Below are positions 1 through 9,461 of a DNA stretch of 64,000 bases, in pieces. The notes below the pieces were generated by a model. That model saw nothing but the letters and a program-made list of their open reading frames with translations, was not told where the DNA came from and made no database searches. The translations under genes and the position numbers were made by a program. The stretch's first letter is position 1, and each line of letters starts with the position of its first letter. The DNA comes from an uncultured Opitutales bacterium. Lineage in GTDB: Bacteria; Verrucomicrobiota; Verrucomicrobiia; Opitutales; Intestinicryptomonadaceae. Location of the stretch: assembly GCA_944389195.1 (NCBI GenBank), contig CALXLM010000040.1:1-64000 (forward strand), read 5' to 3'.

Positions 1-465
1 ATGGAATTTTGCAAGAGTGCGCAGGAAGAAGTAAAGTGGGATAGAAAGATTACTTATCCATTGCGGAAAAGGAAAGACAGGTTAAAGCTGCAAGATAAAG
101 AGCGACTTAAAAGTTTTTTTAGAGAAAATCCAGCAATCGAGCTTGCGTACGAATTTAAGGAACGATTATGCGGGTTGCTAAACAAGAAGAGCCAGACGGC
201 AAGGCAATGCAGGGATAACATAAAGAAGTTAAAGGAAATGATGAAGACAATGAGATACGAGGCGCCGACAGAGTTTGGGAAATTGGCGGAGACGATAAGC
301 GAATGGTTTGCGCCAATAATCAGGATGTGGAGGTTTACAAAAAATAACGGAATAACCGAGGGTTTCCACCGCAAGATGAAGCTAATCCAACGCCTGGCTT
401 ACGGCTATAAAAACTTTGAAAATTATAGATTGAGGGTCATTGTCCAATGCGGCGTCTTCCATTAA
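1..465 (+). CDS. ISL3-family transposase, C-terminal part (cut by window edge)
   Basis: The 154 visible residues match the C-terminal part of the ISL3 (DDE) transposase family. The clearest signature is the tail around residues 117-150, which contains NNGITEGFHRKMK followed by RLAYGYKNFENYRLR. Full-length ISL3 transposases are about 400 residues, so the catalytic N-terminal two thirds either lie left of the window or are missing; the ATG at base 1 is simply the window edge. The sequence just after the stop (CCCACTGACTTCGGTG) resembles the end region of ISL3 elements, but I cannot define the terminal repeat. The element stops about 75 bp before a tRNA gene. Whether the copy is intact cannot be told from here. 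Confidence 0.8.
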   Translation: MEFCKSAQEEVKWDRKITYPLRKRKDRLKLQDKERLKSFFRENPAIELAYEFKERLCGLLNKKSQTARQCRDNIKKLKEMMKTMRYEAPTEFGKLAETISEWFAPIIRMWRFTKNNGITEGFHRKMKLIQRLAYGYKNFENYRLRVIVQCGVFH

Positions 466-1679: not shown

Positions 1680-2177
1680 TTAATTTTCGTCTCCGTAGGC
1701 GGTAATTCCCACGGGCGCGTTCGATTTTATCCGTATAACGCTGAACACCGTGCCGTTTTCGGTCACCACGCGTTCGTCTATGACGGTTTGAGAAGCGTTA
1801 ATCCAACGGGGAAGCTGCGAAGCCGCCCGCTCCGGAACGGATTCGTGCCGCGGCATCGTTTGAACTGCCAGCCAAACGAAGCTCGCGCACAGCGCCATCA
1901 GCGCCGCAACCGCCGCCCATTCGATAGCCGCCCTCACCCTTGAAGTTTTCTTCGCCTCAAAGAAGGGCGACCGCACCCCATCGAGATCTCCGAAAACCGC
2001 CTTTTTGCCGTACATGGCGCATGTAGCCGCATGTATTCTGCACGCCCGGTAAAAGAGTTCTGCCATTCTGCGGTCCCCGCGGACGCATTTTGATAGAAGT
2101 TCCAGCTCTTCCCGCGACGCCTCTCCGTCAAGATACGCCGAAACAATCTCGTCAAACCTCTCGCGGGAAATTTTCAT
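1680..2177 (-). CDS. Putative membrane anti-sigma factor
   Basis: A 165-residue protein whose ATG overlaps the stop of the sigma gene by one base (TAATG), so the two are probably translationally coupled. That arrangement is typical of an ECF sigma factor and its anti-sigma partner. The N-terminus (SAYLDGEASREELELL) resembles the short helical zinc-less anti-sigma N-domains common in Planctomycetes and Verrucomicrobia. One transmembrane segment spans about residues 86-106. A short C-terminal domain of about 55 residues would lie in the periplasm. The frame is open further upstream inside the sigma gene, but the coupled ATG and the domain start favour this start. The anti-sigma role is inferred from position and topology. 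Confidence 0.7.
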   Translation of the reverse strand: MKISRERFDEIVSAYLDGEASREELELLSKCVRGDRRMAELFYRACRIHAATCAMYGKKAVFGDLDGVRSPFFEAKKTSRVRAAIEWAAVAALMALCASFVWLAVQTMPRHESVPERAASQLPRWINASQTVIDERVVTENGTVFSVIRIKSNAPVGITAYGDEN

Positions 2178-2773
2178 TACCGCATTTTTTCCAGCTCTTC
2201 CCTCAGATATTCGCGCGCCCTCGACAAACGGCTCTTTACCGTACCCACGCTGATATTCATACGCACGGCTATTTCCTCGTAGCTTAAATCCTCCTCGTTG
2301 CGCAGTTTCAAAACTTCGCCGTATTTCGCGGGCAACGAGTCGATAGCCTTCGGGAGGAGCTCGGCAAATTCGGAATAGGCCGCGCTTTCGGCCGGATTCT
2401 GACCGCCGCTTTCTATGAGGTCGCAAACAGTCATATCGCCCTCTTCGCCGATGGGCGTGTCGAGGGAAATAGATTCTCCGCGCTTGCGCCTCCACCAATA
2501 CCAATGTTTGTTGTGTGCCAGATTTGTGGCTATATGGTACAGCCATGTGGACAAAGAGCATTCGCCCCTAAAATTGCCAATACTCTTGCGCGCCCTTATA
2601 AACGTGTCCTGGGCGACCTCTTCGGCGTCCTGCCTGTTGTCGAGCAGGCTGTTGGCGCGATTGTATATTTTGTCCCAATGGGTGTTCACCAACTCTCCGA
2701 ATGCGACATCGTCGCCGCCTTTAAGGCGTTCGAGGAGGGTGTCGGGACAAGTTGATTCCATTGATTTTGCCAT
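2177..2773 (-). CDS. ECF-family RNA polymerase sigma factor
   Basis: A 198-residue sigma-70-family protein with the two-domain architecture of extracytoplasmic-function (RpoE-like) sigma factors. Region 2 lies at about residues 25-90, with DNRQDAEEVAQDTFIRA and STWLYHIATNLAHN matching the core-binding and -10 recognition helices. Region 4 lies at about 140-195, with LRNEEDLSYEEIAVRM and GTVKSRLSRARE forming the -35 helix-turn-helix. Regions 1 and 3 are absent, as expected. It is followed by a coupled membrane protein and transcribed away from the GTPase operon across a 383-bp divergent region. Its targets cannot be told from the sequence. Confidence 0.93.
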   Translation of the reverse strand: MAKSMESTCPDTLLERLKGGDDVAFGELVNTHWDKIYNRANSLLDNRQDAEEVAQDTFIRARKSIGNFRGECSLSTWLYHIATNLAHNKHWYWWRRKRGESISLDTPIGEEGDMTVCDLIESGGQNPAESAAYSEFAELLPKAIDSLPAKYGEVLKLRNEEDLSYEEIAVRMNISVGTVKSRLSRAREYLREELEKMR

Positions 2774-3156
2774 AAATTCTTTCCTTTAATGTTAATTAGA
2801 CGGCGAACGCGCCAAAACGTTTCAAAAAAAATCTTCACCGCTGGCGTTCCGCCCTACCGGGCACTTTTTTGGAGGGACTCCGCAAAAACCAAGGCCCCCC
2901 GCTCCGCGGTGTCCCCCGACGCTACAGGGCGGAGTTAATCCACCCATGAAACGCGCGTTTACGAATACAAAACAGCGCGTTTCTGCGTTAAGGGACAAGC
3001 GTCCGCCGTTTGTTTATTTTTATCGTATTTTTTCCGCTTTGCTTAAGCGATTTTTCATCGGCGTCGCCTATTCAATAAATTGCGCCCGAAACCGGCTAAA
3101 ATAAAAAAAGAATTGCCAAAGCGGATCGTCGCGCTAAAAATTTCCTAAAAGGATTT
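2774..3156. promoter_or_regulatory. Divergent control region with GC-rich structured element
   Basis: This 383-bp stretch lies between the divergent sigma-factor and GTPase genes. At 2848-2855 and 2926-2933 an 8-bp inverted repeat (TCCGCCCT/AGGGCGGA) encloses a GC-rich block. Inside it is a hairpin at 2866-2888 whose T-run pairs with an A-run around GGAG-GGA-CTCC. The outer 200 bp towards the GTPase gene are AT-rich and should hold its promoter, although I found no clear -35/-10 pair. The GTPase start has a good ribosome site (AAAAGGA, 5 bp before the ATG). Confidence 0.5.
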
Positions 3157-4896
3157 ATGTTTGGATTTGGAAAAAATAAAAAAGGCGCACGGAAAGTCGC
3201 CTTAGTGGATTGCGGCGACGCCTCCATCCAGGAAACATCAAAATACCCGGCAAAGATAGGAGGCGGCGACTCCGAGTTAAAAACCGATTCCCCTTTCCCG
3301 TTTTTGGAAATATCCGAATCGAAAAACGGGAATTTGACGCTCGCGCCGCTCGACCCCAACGCAAGCGTAAAGATAAACGGAACAAAAATTCTGGCCCCCG
3401 TGGAGATGTCCGACGTGGCCACGCTGCAGGTGGGGGAAAAGCTCTATTACATCATAGCTGACGCGCAAATGCTCGAAAAGGCGCGGGTCATGGACACCTC
3501 GAAGTGGCTCGTTTTTTATTCCGAAACTGGGCGCATAGAAGACGAAGTCCCTTTCGCCAGGCTAAAGAGTTCCGTACTCAGCCGCGGTTTGAACGGCGCG
3601 GGAATCGCCATATGCCCGCGCGGATTTGAAATTGGATTCATGTTTTCGTCGGTTTTCGGCGACGACAAGCCGTCGGACATATCATCCGCCGTCCCCATAC
3701 TGTCTGAAAGCTCCGAAGCGGTGACGTGCCCGCTTTGCTGGCTCAAATTCGACGTCGGCGACGCGATGAGTATAGCGGTTCACGAAAGCCTGCGCGGAGA
3801 TCCCGTACTGGGGCCAGACGAAATGTTGCGTTTTCTGCCGACATCGTTCAACGAGGACGGCGTGGCTTTGGATCCGGCGGGAATGCCTGCTCCGGACGTG
3901 GCCTGCCCGCACTGCCGCAAGAAACTTCCTCCCAACTATCTCGAACTTGAAAGGCGCATTTTCTCTATAGTCGGGGCGCCGAGTTCGGGGAAATCATACT
4001 ATCTGAGCGCACTCATACGCCAGCTGCAAAGTTCGCTGTACAAAAATTTCAACATTGTCTTAAAGGACCTCGACCCATCGGGAAACATGCTTCTTACGCA
4101 AATGAAGAACAGCCTGTTTTCCGCGAAAAATCCGGAGGACGCCATACTCGCGAAGACGGCCCTCGAGGGCCTGATGTACGAACGCTATCCGCGTTTCGGA
4201 AAGATGGTAGCACTTCCGAAACCCATGACATACTCCCTTTCAAAGGACGGCGCGGCGGGCACGTCGATAATTTTCTACGACAATGCCGGGGAGCATTTTG
4301 AGCCGGGACTCGACATCGAGGAGTCTCCCGGCGCGATGCACGTTGCCAGCTCCTCCGGAATATTCTTTCTTTTCGACCCCGCCGCCAACCGCAATTTTAA
4401 GGCGGCGATAGGCGACTATCCCGACCCGCAGCTTACAATCGACGGAAGGCTGGACCAGCAGGACACCATACTGTCCGAAATGGAAGTCCGCATAAAGCGC
4501 ATTCTCGCAATCGAGCCGTCGAAAAAAATAGACACACCCCTTGCGGTGCTGATAGGCAAGTGCGACATATGGCGCCACCTTCTGAAGGAGCCCCTCGGCA
4601 ATCCGGTAGCCGGCGGCAAGCTTGACCTTTCGATTGTCGAGGCAAACAGCAAAGTTCTGAGGGATTTTCTGATAGCAACCGACCCCTCCATAGCCGCGAG
4701 CGCGGAGTCCATATCGAAAAACATAAAGTATTTTGCCGTAAGCGCCCTCGGACACTCGCCGCAAATGCTTACCGAGGGGCCGTGCGCGGGAAAGATAGCT
4801 CCAATACCGTCAAAAATAAACCCGATAGACGTCGAAATACCGGCTATATGGGCGTTGTCCCAGTCCACGGATCTCATTCCCACAACGGGGGCGTAA
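3157..4896 (+). CDS. FHA-like/zinc-ribbon P-loop GTPase (DO-GTPase-like)
   Basis: A 579-residue multidomain protein. Residues 30-100 look like a divergent FHA-type beta sandwich (IGGGDSE, then NASVKINGTKI). Cysteines 191/194 and 250/253 form two CPxC knuckles of a probable zinc ribbon with a long insert. The C-terminal half is a P-loop domain. Walker A is GAPSSGKS at 273-280, a G3-like YDNAGEHF lies at 374-381, and LIGKCD at 465-470 sits where the NKxD base-recognition motif belongs. This is the layout of the TRAFAC-type GTPases that Pfam names double-GTPase (DO-GTPase) and pairs with GAP1 proteins, and the next gene is GAP1-like. No transmembrane segment is visible, so it probably acts at the inner face of the membrane with its partners. 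It is first in a four-gene operon. The family assignment rests on motifs and context, not an alignment. Confidence 0.72.
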   Translation: MFGFGKNKKGARKVALVDCGDASIQETSKYPAKIGGGDSELKTDSPFPFLEISESKNGNLTLAPLDPNASVKINGTKILAPVEMSDVATLQVGEKLYYIIADAQMLEKARVMDTSKWLVFYSETGRIEDEVPFARLKSSVLSRGLNGAGIAICPRGFEIGFMFSSVFGDDKPSDISSAVPILSESSEAVTCPLCWLKFDVGDAMSIAVHESLRGDPVLGPDEMLRFLPTSFNEDGVALDPAGMPAPDVACPHCRKKLPPNYLELERRIFSIVGAPSSGKSYYLSALIRQLQSSLYKNFNIVLKDLDPSGNMLLTQMKNSLFSAKNPEDAILAKTALEGLMYERYPRFGKMVALPKPMTYSLSKDGAAGTSIIFYDNAGEHFEPGLDIEESPGAMHVASSSGIFFLFDPAANRNFKAAIGDYPDPQLTIDGRLDQQDTILSEMEVRIKRILAIEPSKKIDTPLAVLIGKCDIWRHLLKEPLGNPVAGGKLDLSIVEANSKVLRDFLIATDPSIAASAESISKNIKYFAVSALGHSPQMLTEGPCAGKIAPIPSKINPIDVEIPAIWALSQSTDLIPTTGA

Positions 4897-4901
4897 AGGA
4901 T

Positions 4902-6266
4902 ATGGCATACCAACTCATATTCACAAGCTGGCCGACGTCGCTTACGATGGGCAGGACGGGATTTTCTACGGTTGCTCGCACAAAATCCATGCCCGAAAAG
5001 CTTGCGGCGGCGGTGGAGCGCTGCGGAGTTTACGACATTCTGCACGGCGAAATATTTTCCCACAGAACCTTGTCCTACTGCGGAGAAACGTGGCATATAC
5101 TGACGAGAATGGGAGATTCCGGGACAGACTACACAAACCGGAACAACTACATAGCCCACCATATAGCCATTCCGCAAAGCGAAATACCAGGGCTCGCAAA
5201 CCCGGCGGAAATACTCGCCCAATGGGACGGGTGGGCAAAGCGGTGGTCGGGCGAGCCCCGCTTTATAGGCGAACCCGACGGCATCGACAAAATACGCGCA
5301 AAAAATTCTCTTCCTGCCAAAAACTGGGAAAGAATATTCGGCAGCTCCGCCAAGGCCGCCCTGCTCGGAAATTTTCCCGCACAGATAACGGCGTCCGCCG
5401 GCGACTGCCGGACTCTGCTCGACTTGTTTTCAGAAAGCCTGCTGTTGAACGTCAATCCGCTCAACGCATGGGAAGTCACTTTCACGACGTACTCGTCCGG
5501 CAGCGAAAACGCGGGAGTTTTTCTATGGAAGGCCGCAGAATCGTCAGATGGCGACCCGATGCAAATAAATCTCACTTTGAAAAGCGCCCCTCCCGCGCCC
5601 AATACGCGCGCGGCTGAATACGCCTCTACCGGAATTTTGACAAACCGCGAACGCTTAAACTTAAAAGTTTCAAAGCCCAAAGCGCCAACGCGCTACAAGG
5701 TGGTGTACGTAAAAAAACGGGGTGTCCCGAAAATATTTCTGCTTTACGCCGCATCGGCTGCGATAACCGCCGGAACGATTGCCGCAGCCGCTTTCCTATA
5801 CATGGAGCCGGCGGATTCATTCAAAGAAAACGCGGTCCAGGCATCTCCCGAGCCGCTTCCCGTTTTAGAGGCGCTCTCGGAATCGAATCCGGAAAAGCGC
5901 GCCGCAGAAGGGCAGTCCGAATCCTCCGCCCGTGCAAAAACCCTTTCGGAAACCATATCCGAAGCGAGGGAGAAAGTGGGAAAAGACGATTTCGAGGGCG
6001 CGGTACGCCTATGGGACGAATCGCCCTACGCTGCCTCCAACCCGTCGGTCAAGCGCGACATTCTCGAAGACATCGGGGCGCGCGCCGATTCGCTTATGAG
6101 ATATGCCGAAAACGCGTTTGCATTGGGCGGGCGCGACGAAAAAGCCGAGGGAAAAGCTATAGTCAATATGGCAAAAGCCCGCCGCGCGCTCGACATTCCC
6201 GGAATCTCCCGCAAAGAGGCGCGCGAAAAAAAATGGAAAACTTTGAACGGTAAAATCGGAAAATAA
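4902..6266 (+). CDS. GTPase-associated protein 1 (GAP1-N)-like membrane protein
   Basis: A 454-residue protein. Residues 1-235 resemble the N-terminal domain of GTPase-associated protein 1: FTSWPTSLTMGRTGFSTVAR at the start, then GTDYTNRNNYIAHHIAIP at about 74-91, which matches the family's characteristic DxxxRxNxxAHH pattern. A single transmembrane helix follows at about 276-300 after a basic stretch, so the GAP1-like part is cytoplasmic. A charged tail of about 150 residues, mostly helical, lies outside. I chose the ATG at 4902 because it follows the GTPase stop by 5 bp with AAAGGA in front and gives a proper domain start. The upstream in-frame extension lies inside the GTPase gene. The usual GAP1 middle and C-terminal domains appear to be replaced by the membrane anchor and tail. 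Confidence 0.7.
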   Translation: MAYQLIFTSWPTSLTMGRTGFSTVARTKSMPEKLAAAVERCGVYDILHGEIFSHRTLSYCGETWHILTRMGDSGTDYTNRNNYIAHHIAIPQSEIPGLANPAEILAQWDGWAKRWSGEPRFIGEPDGIDKIRAKNSLPAKNWERIFGSSAKAALLGNFPAQITASAGDCRTLLDLFSESLLLNVNPLNAWEVTFTTYSSGSENAGVFLWKAAESSDGDPMQINLTLKSAPPAPNTRAAEYASTGILTNRERLNLKVSKPKAPTRYKVVYVKKRGVPKIFLLYAASAAITAGTIAAAAFLYMEPADSFKENAVQASPEPLPVLEALSESNPEKRAAEGQSESSARAKTLSETISEAREKVGKDDFEGAVRLWDESPYAASNPSVKRDILEDIGARADSLMRYAENAFALGGRDEKAEGKAIVNMAKARRALDIPGISRKEAREKKWKTLNGKIGK

Positions 6267-9040
6267 TGACTCCACAATTTTTAACAGTAAAAATTCAGGC
6301 GCTTCTCGGCGGACGCGCGACGGCCTCCGAAATGCAAAAAAGATCGGTCGCCATGGAATACTACAAGTTGTGCGCGCGCGCCGAAGCGCAGCTCGAGCAC
6401 TGCGTGGCACTCATAAAAGCCGGCCGCGACTATCCGGCATTGCAAGTGGCGGAATCCTCCGGGTTGCTCGACCTTCTAAATTCGCTGATGTTCCCCGAAC
6501 TTGAGCGGTGGCGCTCGTACTGCGCGGCGGAAGACCTGCCCGTGCCGCCGCCGTTCGACGATTCGCAAATAGAGCTTGTAAATTCCCTTTACGCAAGGGG
6601 CGTGTCACAAAACCACCCCCTTTACCGCGACTACCGGCGCGCCATGCGCATGAGAAAGTACGAAGACGCGCTGGCCGTAATAAAAACCATTTCGAAAATC
6701 AACTCCTACGACGCCGAAGCTCGGCGCGAATGCGACAAGCTCCGGAGGAAGGTGTCCGCCGCAAAATTGAAAAAGCTTGAAGGCGCGCTCGCAAAAAACG
6801 ATTTCGAGGCGGTATTAAAGCTGTACGACGAGCTCCAACCCGAATCCGAACTGATATCCGACAGCAGAGTGTGGAGGGAGGCGTCGGAATTTAAGCGCGC
6901 CAAGGAAAGCGAATACGAACGCTCCCGCTGCATGTCGATAATCAGAGAGCTTGAATCAATCGACATTGAAAACGATTTCGCCCGGGCCTCGGATCTGGTG
7001 ACGGAGTTCAATCTTATCCGCAGCGACACCGATTTCGTCGGCCCCGACCTCGAATTCATAGAAAAAATATCGAAGGAGACGGCGGTGAAGCAAAACGAGA
7101 TAATCGCCGCCGAAAAGGCCGCACGCGCGCGAAACCTGATAGGTATAGAGCTTGAAAGCCCTGACAAGAGTGAAAGAAGGCGGGTAAAACTGGCGCGTCT
7201 GCTGTCGCTTTCGGCGGACGCGGGGAAAACCCTCGACCCAGAATCCGCAAGGAGGCTGGCGGCGCGCATATCCGCACTGAGGCTCAGCCTGCGCATGTCG
7301 GCGGCGGCCAAAGCGGCATGCTGGGCGGCGGCGGCGGCAGGAATCGCCGCGGCGGCGGCGTTTATATGGAACTTTGCTGAATCGCAAAAAATCGGCAGCG
7401 AGGCGGAAAACGAAATAGCCCAGATAGAGGCCTCACAGGAACCCTCGGATCTTCCTAAAAAAATAGAATCGTTCAGGAAAAAATACCCGGAACTTTCGGA
7501 ATCGAAATACGCCGAAAGACTTTCGAGTTTGGAAGGCGTTGCGGCGCTGTCCATAAAGCGCCGCGACCGCGTAAAAAGCGCGTTGGAACAAATGGAGGCC
7601 ATAGACTTTAAGACGGCGCCCTCAAAAGAGTTTGCGGAGGCGAAATCGAACTCCGAAAAGCTTTTTCTTGAGCTTTCGTCGCTGTCACCGATGGAGCAGA
7701 TTGACTTCCGCGACAGAATCGAAAGCCTTTCGAAAAAAATTTCCGCCGCAATAGACGAAAGGAAGGCGAAAAACTCGGCCGCAATAAGGCTCAATCTGTC
7801 AAAATACGAATCCATAGCCGAAGAATATGAAAACTTTTCGCGCGCGAAGGACGACATAGACAGGGACGCCGAGAAGGTCCTGAAAGTTCTCCGCCCGCTC
7901 ATGGAGGACGTCAGCATCCTTTTTAAGCCGCACCAACTCGACATAGAAAAGTTCAACGAAATATCGGTGCGAGCCACCGACGCAAAAAACAAGTACGCAA
8001 AGTTCGACAAGCTAAAAGAGGCCCTTGAAACGTCGAGAACCGCGGCGGAATATTCGGCCGCCGTCGACATTCTCGCGGAGTCCGGAATAACGCCCGCGGA
8101 ATTCGCGCGCAAATTGTCGAAAATCGCCGAATTAAAGGACTCTATAATGCTCGGGCAGCTCGTCGATTTCGGGACTCCCGAGGGCGTTGCGCAAATTAAT
8201 TCTGCGGGCATCGCGGTGCGCGCCGCACTGCCCGAAAACAAAATGCTCACCGACCTCTATAAATATTCTCGCGACGGAAAATACGAAGTTTACACCATAG
8301 GGAAAATCACCGAGCAGACCCAAAAATGGCGCGGAGGCTCCGAAATAGTGCAGCAGGTAAACGAAGTCTCCGCCGGCGGCAGAATCTCTACAAAGCCATA
8401 CAGAAAACACTTTATCGACGGGCGCGCCCCCCGCGGGGAAATACTTTTGGGCGGCGACGAAGCCGCGGAATCGAAACTCGGCAAAATGGCATATAAAGAA
8501 GCCGCCCAAGAATCGCTGCTATCGGCGCTAACGCTCATAGGAAACGCAAAGGCAAACCCCATTTACAAAGTATTTTTCGAAGGGTTGATTTTTGCCAAGC
8601 TTTCTGAAAATCCCGCAGCTACAATGCTTGAATACTCCCCTTTGGCGAAGGCGAGAAAAACGGCGGTCGAACGCTACTCCAAAGCGTTTTTCGACTATTC
8701 GTGGATATTCGAATCCGATTCAAAGGCCAAACTGATAGATGCCGAACTTTACTCACAAAAGGCCCCCGACTACTTCAAAGACGCCCAAACGCGGCTGAAC
8801 GCGATAAAAATAGCGCTCGAAAACCCGATTATGCTAATTGGCGTGTGCGACGAAACCGGCAAGGCGTCTTTGTTCAAAGATCCCAAGGGCGCAATATGGT
8901 CGGTGGGCCTTGGCACCGGAAAATTTGAAAGGGTAGGCGAAAATATGGCCGCGTGCTCGGGCAAACTCGCGCCGCTGGCTCCAATTTTCAGCGAAGTTAA
9001 GCCCTCCGCCGAAATTTTAAAAGAAGCCGCCCGCAAATAG
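6266..9040 (+). CDS. Large coiled-coil/TPR-like membrane protein of the GTPase operon
   Basis: A 924-residue protein with no family I recognise. Residues 1-340 are charged, helical and repeat-like (RKYEDALAVIKTISK, then KNDFEAVLKLYDELQPE, spaced like TPR hairpins). A very alanine-rich transmembrane helix lies at about 346-370. About 270 residues of predicted coiled coil follow, rich in Lys, Glu, Ser and Ala. The C-terminal 280 residues look globular and mixed alpha/beta (for example KYEVYTIGKITEQTQKW). Its ATG overlaps the previous stop by one base (TAATG). With one membrane pass it could link the cytoplasmic GTPase/GAP1 module to the cell envelope, possibly as scaffold or sensor. That role is inference from topology and operon position. 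Confidence 0.75.
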   Translation: MTPQFLTVKIQALLGGRATASEMQKRSVAMEYYKLCARAEAQLEHCVALIKAGRDYPALQVAESSGLLDLLNSLMFPELERWRSYCAAEDLPVPPPFDDSQIELVNSLYARGVSQNHPLYRDYRRAMRMRKYEDALAVIKTISKINSYDAEARRECDKLRRKVSAAKLKKLEGALAKNDFEAVLKLYDELQPESELISDSRVWREASEFKRAKESEYERSRCMSIIRELESIDIENDFARASDLVTEFNLIRSDTDFVGPDLEFIEKISKETAVKQNEIIAAEKAARARNLIGIELESPDKSERRRVKLARLLSLSADAGKTLDPESARRLAARISALRLSLRMSAAAKAACWAAAAAGIAAAAAFIWNFAESQKIGSEAENEIAQIEASQEPSDLPKKIESFRKKYPELSESKYAERLSSLEGVAALSIKRRDRVKSALEQMEAIDFKTAPSKEFAEAKSNSEKLFLELSSLSPMEQIDFRDRIESLSKKISAAIDERKAKNSAAIRLNLSKYESIAEEYENFSRAKDDIDRDAEKVLKVLRPLMEDVSILFKPHQLDIEKFNEISVRATDAKNKYAKFDKLKEALETSRTAAEYSAAVDILAESGITPAEFARKLSKIAELKDSIMLGQLVDFGTPEGVAQINSAGIAVRAALPENKMLTDLYKYSRDGKYEVYTIGKITEQTQKWRGGSEIVQQVNEVSAGGRISTKPYRKHFIDGRAPRGEILLGGDEAAESKLGKMAYKEAAQESLLSALTLIGNAKANPIYKVFFEGLIFAKLSENPAATMLEYSPLAKARKTAVERYSKAFFDYSWIFESDSKAKLIDAELYSQKAPDYFKDAQTRLNAIKIALENPIMLIGVCDETGKASLFKDPKGAIWSVGLGTGKFERVGENMAACSGKLAPLAPIFSEVKPSAEILKEAARK

Positions 9041-9041
9041 C

Positions 9042-9461
9042 ATGAACGGGGAAAAAATCTTTTTTTTGAGTTGGAAAGGCCGCGAAAGCGGCCCGTTTTC
9101 CGCAAAGGAAATCAAGGATATGCTCGGGTGCGGCAAAATCGGAATGCTGCACCTCGTAAGGACGAAATCGACGACTTGGAAACCCCTCAAAAACGTCGAT
9201 TTGTCGAAAATGACGGACGAAAGCGCTCCTGCCGCGCCGCGAAGTTGCGAAAAAATCGACGCCTTGGCCCTGACGGTTTACGCAGTGGCGGGCTTGACTT
9301 TTCTTTCACCGTGGCTGTTGTCGGCGTCGTTTGCGCTGTCGGCATACCAATGGATAGCGGGTTTTAAAAGAAACGCCGTGCTTTCGTTCATCGTGGCGCT
9401 TGCAATCGCGGCGGGCGGAATGGTTTTCTTCGGGCTGGTTTATCCCACAATACTTGAGTGA
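9042..9461 (+). CDS. GYF_2-domain (DUF4339-like) small membrane protein
   Basis: A 139-residue protein starting one base after the previous stop. Residues 5-55 (FLSWKGRESGPFSAKEIKDM, then TTWKPLKNVDL) fit the GYF_2/DUF4339 domain, a small fold thought to bind proline-rich or partner peptides in bacterial membrane proteins. After a short linker, two hydrophobic segments at about 73-103 and 112-135 form a membrane anchor. It is the last gene of the GTPase operon and probably tethers or recruits a component; that is inference. No terminator is evident before nadK, so the operon may read through. Confidence 0.72.
   Translation: MNGEKIFFLSWKGRESGPFSAKEIKDMLGCGKIGMLHLVRTKSTTWKPLKNVDLSKMTDESAPAAPRSCEKIDALALTVYAVAGLTFLSPWLLSASFALSAYQWIAGFKRNAVLSFIVALAIAAGGMVFFGLVYPTILE

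Follow-up and report, generated by a model that had tools for sequence, protein, structure and literature searches.

Positions 3157 to 9461 of a 64,000-nucleotide stretch from an uncultured Opitutales bacterium (contig CALXLM010000040.1, positions 1 to 64,000; the whole stretch is referred to as the window) carry four co-directional genes, which encode a GTPase, a GAP1-like protein, a 924-residue single-pass protein of no known family (called CC here, together with its homologues) and a small GYF-domain membrane protein. We propose, with belief and doubt in about equal measure, that the four products form a GTP-switched inner-membrane complex, whose ancestral form would have been coupled with an ion-driven stator that the window's version lacks. 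CC proved to be a constant partner of the GAP1-N2 domain, and relatives of the module carry a dedicated channel that has no counterpart in the window's locus.

A four-gene module with a constant third partner

The four genes follow one another at a spacing of 5 bp, a 1-bp overlap and 1 bp. We surveyed the loci of the 80 nearest GTPase relatives in named genomes, of which 42 could be evaluated; relatives of the window are over-represented among them, and the genomes surveyed are mostly metagenome bins. GAP1 was found at 39 of the 42 loci and CC at 38, with an intergenic spacing that is mostly of a few bases. Automatic picking of open reading frames (ORFs) placed all four genes at 33 loci, and this count rose to 37 once GYF genes had been recovered. 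Homologues of GAP1 and CC were present in every unmasked genus and family member sampled (genome G001 is partly masked, and G001 and G010 were left out of the counts for the genus). We considered G010 as a genus member devoid of the module and rejected this reading because a nearby housekeeping gene was equally undetected there. Within the two best-sampled families, that of the window and a freshwater one, the gene set is constant and its parts are not swapped, whereas it is variable across the phylum.

Profile searches were performed on 384 Verrucomicrobiota genomes, the phylum to which the counts for CC, GAP1-N2 and the channel refer. GAP1-N2 is present in 68 of these genomes. It is also found in 45 of the 47 genomes that bear CC, and for 43 of 49 CC hits a GAP1-N2 gene is no more than 8 kb away. 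This co-occurrence covers many families, and kinship among the genomes inflates any p-value that could be attached to it. CC is a constant, phylum-wide partner of GAP1-N2, which is newly recognised here.

The GTPase gene (positions 3157 to 4896, forward strand) encodes 579 residues, and was characterized from its ORF, an AlphaFold model, Foldseek comparisons and invariant motifs. Its architecture is FHA (residues ~10–102), GYF-like (~112–168), split zinc ribbon and TRAFAC-type GTPase (~263–579), an order established from the folds of the model and from domain matches in remote orthologues, where FHA (at E-values as low as 1.7e-17) is followed by GYF_2 (E = 3e-11). The model, calculated from 50 orthologues with a predicted local distance difference test (pLDDT) score of 84.6, retrieved TRAFAC GTPases such as EF-Tu, atlastin, Arf and FeoB at a Foldseek probability of 1.00, and FHA domains as well (Ki67 FHA, template modelling score 0.73). 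The P-loop GAPSSGKS lies at residue 273, DNAGEHF at 375 and GKCD at 467; the P-loop, DxxG/DNAGE and G/NKxD motifs and the four zinc-ribbon cysteines vary little or not at all across the 50 orthologues. Invariant among orthologues are also the cysteine pairs themselves (C191/C194 and C250/C253), for which all Pfam ribbon matches are sub-threshold, and the glutamate of the Walker B motif (E379 of D375-N-A-G-E379). Against the DO-GTPase2 model (PF19993), the protein of the window scored 19.3 bits (E = 9e-4), below the Pfam cut-off of 27; all 50 orthologues matched this model at E ≤ 0.1 (best value 1.7e-8), and remote orthologues at loci L189, L198 and L199 exceeded the cut-off. We note that GTPase genes with no detectable adjoining GAP1 occur in termite-gut-type Puniceicoccales bins (L113, L116, L134, L141 and L145), and that Md513_bin100 holds several GTPase copies, possibly an expansion of the family.

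GAP1 (positions 4902 to 6266, forward strand; 454 residues) was recognised by its match to PF20013 and by hydropathy, from which its transmembrane (TM) segment was placed. It consists of the GAP1-N2 domain (residues 1–119; E = 2.9e-17, 63.4 bits for a cut-off of 24), a middle region, a TM segment (~278–296) and a tail that is predicted to be periplasmic; basic residues ahead of the TM segment suggest that the N-terminus is inside and the C-terminus outside. All 37 homologues scanned matched GAP1-N2, and R26, D76, Y77, R80, N82 and H87 are invariant. Past the N-terminal domain, the Pfam scan of these 37 proteins gave no match naming GAP1-M or GAP1-C, and neither a fibronectin type III (FNIII) domain nor a recurrent effector domain was found in them.

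CC (positions 6266 to 9040, forward strand), as seen from its ORF, model and hydropathy, comprises a helical N-terminal part (residues 1–345) predicted to be cytosolic, a TM segment (~349–367), a helical rod (~380–640) and a C-terminal beta/alpha domain (~660–924). An N-in, C-out topology is suggested by the basic residues that precede the TM segment. The model, generated from 44 sequences (pLDDT 86.2), matched no solved fold in the PDB at E ≤ 1e-3. The protein of the window gave nothing above cut-off in Pfam, PADLOC or NCBIfam, and 44 homologues showed no recurrent domain match, FNIII and effector domains included. Identity among family members is 48% in the cytosolic half and 30% in the rod. 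In the f4 family (L063, L065, L066 and L068), GAP1 and CC adjoin with no GTPase detected beside them; the latter may be encoded elsewhere or be too diverged. In one branch of the Verrucomicrobiota, a PilM-like protein with an extra TM segment is encoded 3' of CC (L190:11368-13224 and L195:1929-3749), with PilM_2 E-values of 6e-16 and 1.4e-3, respectively.

The fourth gene (positions 9042 to 9461, forward strand) encodes a protein of 139 residues with two TM segments, identified through GYF_2 and through its orthologues, which are present at 37 of the 42 evaluable loci. The GYF_2 match is sub-threshold in the window (E = 2.3e-4) and reaches 7e-15 in relatives. An apparent loss of the gene in L075, L106, L114 and L128 was rejected as an artefact of ORF picking, since GYF genes were recovered there; among the well-covered members of the family, genome G003 (L091/L052) alone showed none after CC. 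Elsewhere in the phylum, GYF proteins carry added domains, namely trypsin (L198:12149-13789), the intramembrane protease PrsW (L192:330-1721) and RDD (L206:1495-2529, and L057). The genome of the window also encodes a second, stronger GYF_2 protein (G000:C17:109339-109476, L001; 52.5 bits, in a 369-residue frame).

An original prediction, made from the letters of this DNA, had described a tightly packed group consisting of an FHA-like, zinc-ribbon, P-loop GTPase, a GAP1-N-like protein with its own membrane anchor, a long coiled-coil membrane protein and a GYF-domain membrane protein, three of the four carrying TM segments. The ORFs and their spacing are exactly as described, the genes stand together in most evaluable relatives, and the domain assignments agree with ours, with one TM segment in GAP1, one in CC and two in the GYF protein. 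The Pfam profiles it had named gave a divided result, GAP1-N2 lying above its cut-off and DO-GTPase2 and GYF_2 being sub-threshold in the window and clear in relatives. The GTPase matches TRAFAC proteins by its fold and the second protein matches GAP1-N2, and homologues of the four genes are co-located in other genomes; neither of the two outcomes that the prediction had named as refuting was seen. Its statement that no obvious effector is present holds within the two best-sampled families and fails across the phylum, where GYF is joined to trypsin, PrsW or RDD.

A dedicated channel in relatives of the module

In remote relatives, a trio of genes recurs downstream of the GYF gene, encoding a protein of the MotA/TolQ/ExbB family and two single-pass proteins. 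The channel protein matches MotA_ExbB in several families (E-values from 9e-11 to 4e-8; 33.6–42.0 bits for a cut-off of 22.9), and has a conserved N-terminal signature of its own as well as a TM3-TM4 signature, PxLGFIGTxxGL...AFxTT. A profile of this subfamily separated the hits in the 384 genomes into two sets, 28 above 330 bits and 43 below 235 bits. All 28 high-scoring channels lie within ~10 kb of the module, next to GAP1-N2 (26) or CC (2), versus none of the 43 lower-scoring MotA/ExbB proteins; therefore, this channel subfamily is dedicated to the GAP1-N2/CC system in Verrucomicrobiota. The two single-pass partners are paralogous; they share a coiled-coil-like region and, where the TM segment begins, an invariant Asp that recalls ExbD/TolR.

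The dedicated channel was not found in the window's locus, in the window's family or in the freshwater family, and the genome of the window encodes six ordinary MotA/ExbB proteins and none of the dedicated subfamily. The original prediction had called the module streamlined, and this is borne out because the channel and two partners of the relatives are missing in the window's family. In the GTPase tree, loci with the channel are found to either side of the deepest division; this distribution speaks for an ancestral link followed by losses, a simpler reading than gain elsewhere.

The 43 lower-scoring hits form a second MotA/ExbB group, mostly of ~500 residues and unlinked to GAP1-N2. One of them (in G270:C2) adjoins L237:1110-2009, whose product is ExbD-like, is extended by a coiled coil and bears an LDxLC motif in its TM segment.

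Proposed mechanism and competing roles

In the proposed complex, the soluble GTPase would be the switch, with its FHA, GYF and zinc-ribbon regions serving as docking surfaces. It would bind the GAP1-N2 domain and the helical half of CC, both predicted to be cytosolic, and GTP binding or hydrolysis would alter the conformation of the membrane-anchored assembly. CC could then pass this change across the membrane to the large rod and the C-terminal domain on its periplasmic side; these parts would act on the cell envelope, and the GYF protein may be an additional membrane partner held through its GYF domain. The ancestral complex would also have included a MotA/TolQ/ExbB-type channel, gated by the GTPase and accompanied by two rod-like single-pass proteins, and would thus have turned ion flow into mechanical work; in the window's family the channel would have been lost, and the switch and transmission parts kept. 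More tentatively, we suggest a GTPase-gated, ion-driven envelope machine, in which the DO-GTPase/GAP1-N2 switch would control the stator via CC; the window's lineage, being stator-less, might run on GTP alone or on a general ExbB/TolQ channel.

Several observations weigh against this proposal. No channel gene is present at the window's own locus, and the notion of a motor derives from relatives; across the phylum, about two thirds of GAP1-N2 loci lack the channel. Its presence changes seven times as a label on the GTPase tree, so that repeated gain is possible. Profile comparisons of the single-pass partners with ExbD, TolR and MotB yielded no significant match, and the 'GAP' activity of GAP1 comes from its name only.

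The main rival, over which the envelope complex is favoured only modestly, is a conflict role, in which DO-GTPase and GAP1 would belong to an anti-phage or self-sacrifice system that senses invasion and releases the two-TM GYF protein as a pore-forming effector. Such a role is in line with the report of Kaur et al. (2020), where GAP1-N2 systems are placed in the conflict class, with the patchy distribution of GAP1-N2 (68 of 384 genomes) and with the variable parts attached elsewhere (GYF-trypsin, GYF-RDD, GYF-PrsW, PilM-like). Zorya, moreover, is a MotAB-like motor used in phage defence (PMC11890865), and GAP1, CC and the GYF protein diverge fast between family members (44%, 42% and 35% identity, respectively, versus 69% for the neighbouring NAD kinase, a value close to the 68% of the GTPase). 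We nevertheless regard it as unlikely. GAP1 and the CC homologue are kept in all unmasked genus and family members sampled, parts are not swapped within the two best-sampled families, PADLOC returned no hit of note, and no nuclease or toxin domain was found. GAP1 had no match among catalogued plasmids, nor the GTPase among catalogued phages. The set in the window is chromosomal, and in both well-sampled families the locus holds a stable position among housekeeping genes. In the genus of the window these are ribosomal L21/L27 and NAD kinase-YihY-PdxH (L21, L27 and PdxH named by reading the sequence), and, in freshwater relatives, genes that look like those of histidine, NAD and pantothenate biosynthesis, again as read from the sequences. 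With such neighbours and no PADLOC hit of note, we rejected the reading of the window's locus as a defence island.

A second alternative is an envelope-stress sensor, in which CC and GAP1 would read the state of the envelope through their periplasmic regions, and the state of the GTPase would set the release of an anti-sigma protein and hence the output of an extracytoplasmic function (ECF) sigma factor. It is brought to mind by a gene pair directly 5' of the operon and divergent from it, which the original prediction had overlooked. The ECF sigma factor (positions 2177 to 2773, reverse strand) matches Sigma70_r4_2 (E = 6e-18) and Sigma70_r2 (E = 1e-12). The putative anti-sigma protein (1680 to 2177, reverse strand; 165 residues, one TM segment at ~83–101) was named from its position and TM segment; its start overlaps the sigma stop codon, and one relative gave a weak zf-HC2 match (E = 0.04). 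Sigma was found at 30 of the 42 evaluable loci, and a putative anti-sigma homologue stood beside it at 27. The pair is co-conserved with the module in window-like families, which is newly recognised here, and is kept in three Opitutales families despite differing flanking genes. An ECF-promoter-like site, GAAAC-N17-GTCT (2798 to 2823, reverse strand), lies directly upstream of the sigma gene and points towards it, as expected for autoregulation, and a DO-GTPase relative near psp genes has a predicted role in membrane stress (PMC11237479). On the other hand, the pair is missing in families where the four genes persist (L056, L057, L143, L147, L152 and L154). Of 48 divergent intergenic regions, 8 hold a strict match to the site, always in the window's family and facing the sigma gene; in none does one face the GTPase, and scanning the genome produced 3 hits versus 4 in the reversed control, revealing no regulon. 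In view of the site and the scan, control of the operon by the adjacent sigma factor was set aside as unsupported, and we consider the sensor improbable.

Least probable of all is a structural scaffold or a secretion- or pilus-like apparatus that the GTPase would help to assemble. The PilM-like protein after the module in one branch (PilM_2 E = 6e-16) and the long helical rod of the periplasmic CC part would suit it, but none of the scanned proteins, those of the window's operon included, was recognised as a pilin, secretin or secretion ATPase.

Relation to described systems

Kaur, Burroughs, Iyer and Aravind (2020; eLife 9:e52696, PMC7159879) report that verrucomicrobiae have GAP1-N2 systems, in which GTPases carry zinc ribbons and GAP1 is fused to TM segments, and describe planctomycete GYF proteins fused to TM-rich regions or to trypsin. 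The GTPase and GAP1 of the window belong to these systems, so that neither membrane association nor the GYF linkage is new, and the suggestion of an envelope-linked version not previously described is not supported in the form given. The likeness extends to a GAP1-N2 domain above cut-off, a zinc-ribbon TRAFAC GTPase encoded just upstream (5 bp) with a Glu after DxxG, a membrane-anchored GAP1, a GYF-TM component and verrucomicrobial occurrence. The GYF-trypsin, RDD, PrsW and PilM-like extras likewise fit the picture of a core with variable parts drawn by these authors. By contrast, no FNIII component was found in the 44 CC and 37 GAP1 homologues, and CC fills a constant third place; the GTPase bears FHA and GYF domains, a sigma/anti-sigma pair is present, relatives have a dedicated MotA/ExbB channel, and the make-up within families is constant rather than variable. 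The main text of Kaur et al. (2020) makes no mention of MotA, TolQ or ExbB, and beyond that paper we found no literature on a combination of DO-GTPase, ExbB and GYF.

With Tol-Pal, Ton and MotAB stators, only the relatives share features, namely a channel of the MotA/TolQ/ExbB family and single-pass rod proteins with an Asp in the TM segment. They differ in that their channels form a subfamily apart, seen solely alongside GAP1-N2 or CC and apparently controlled by a GTPase, and in having two distinct single-pass partners whose homology to ExbD/TolR is unproven; the window has no channel. Similarly, only the relatives resemble Zorya (ZorAB), through a MotAB-like motor joined to cytosolic NTP-dependent parts. 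Here, however, the channel is of ~300 residues and has no long cytoplasmic tail of the ZorA type, the GTPase and GAP1 take the place of the other parts, and ZorC, ZorD and ZorE were not recognised.

DO-GTPase/GAP1 systems have so far been described computationally, and we found no experiment on them in the literature searched. The constant partner of ~1000 residues and the dedicated channel offer a testable hint of what the switch may drive in Verrucomicrobiota, and raise the question of a GTPase that gates an ion-driven envelope motor. Part of the GAP1-N2 group may thus be machinery of the cell envelope rather than of defence, in which case the labels of its genes would change.

The window comes from the metagenome-assembled genome of a gut bacterium, whose nearest named relatives are bins of Opitutales and Verrucomicrobiota; gut or rumen was the source of several of these. 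At the edge of the window (positions 1 to 465, forward strand), ~2.7 kb upstream of the operon, lies an ORF whose sequence looks like the C-terminal portion of an ISL3-type transposase.

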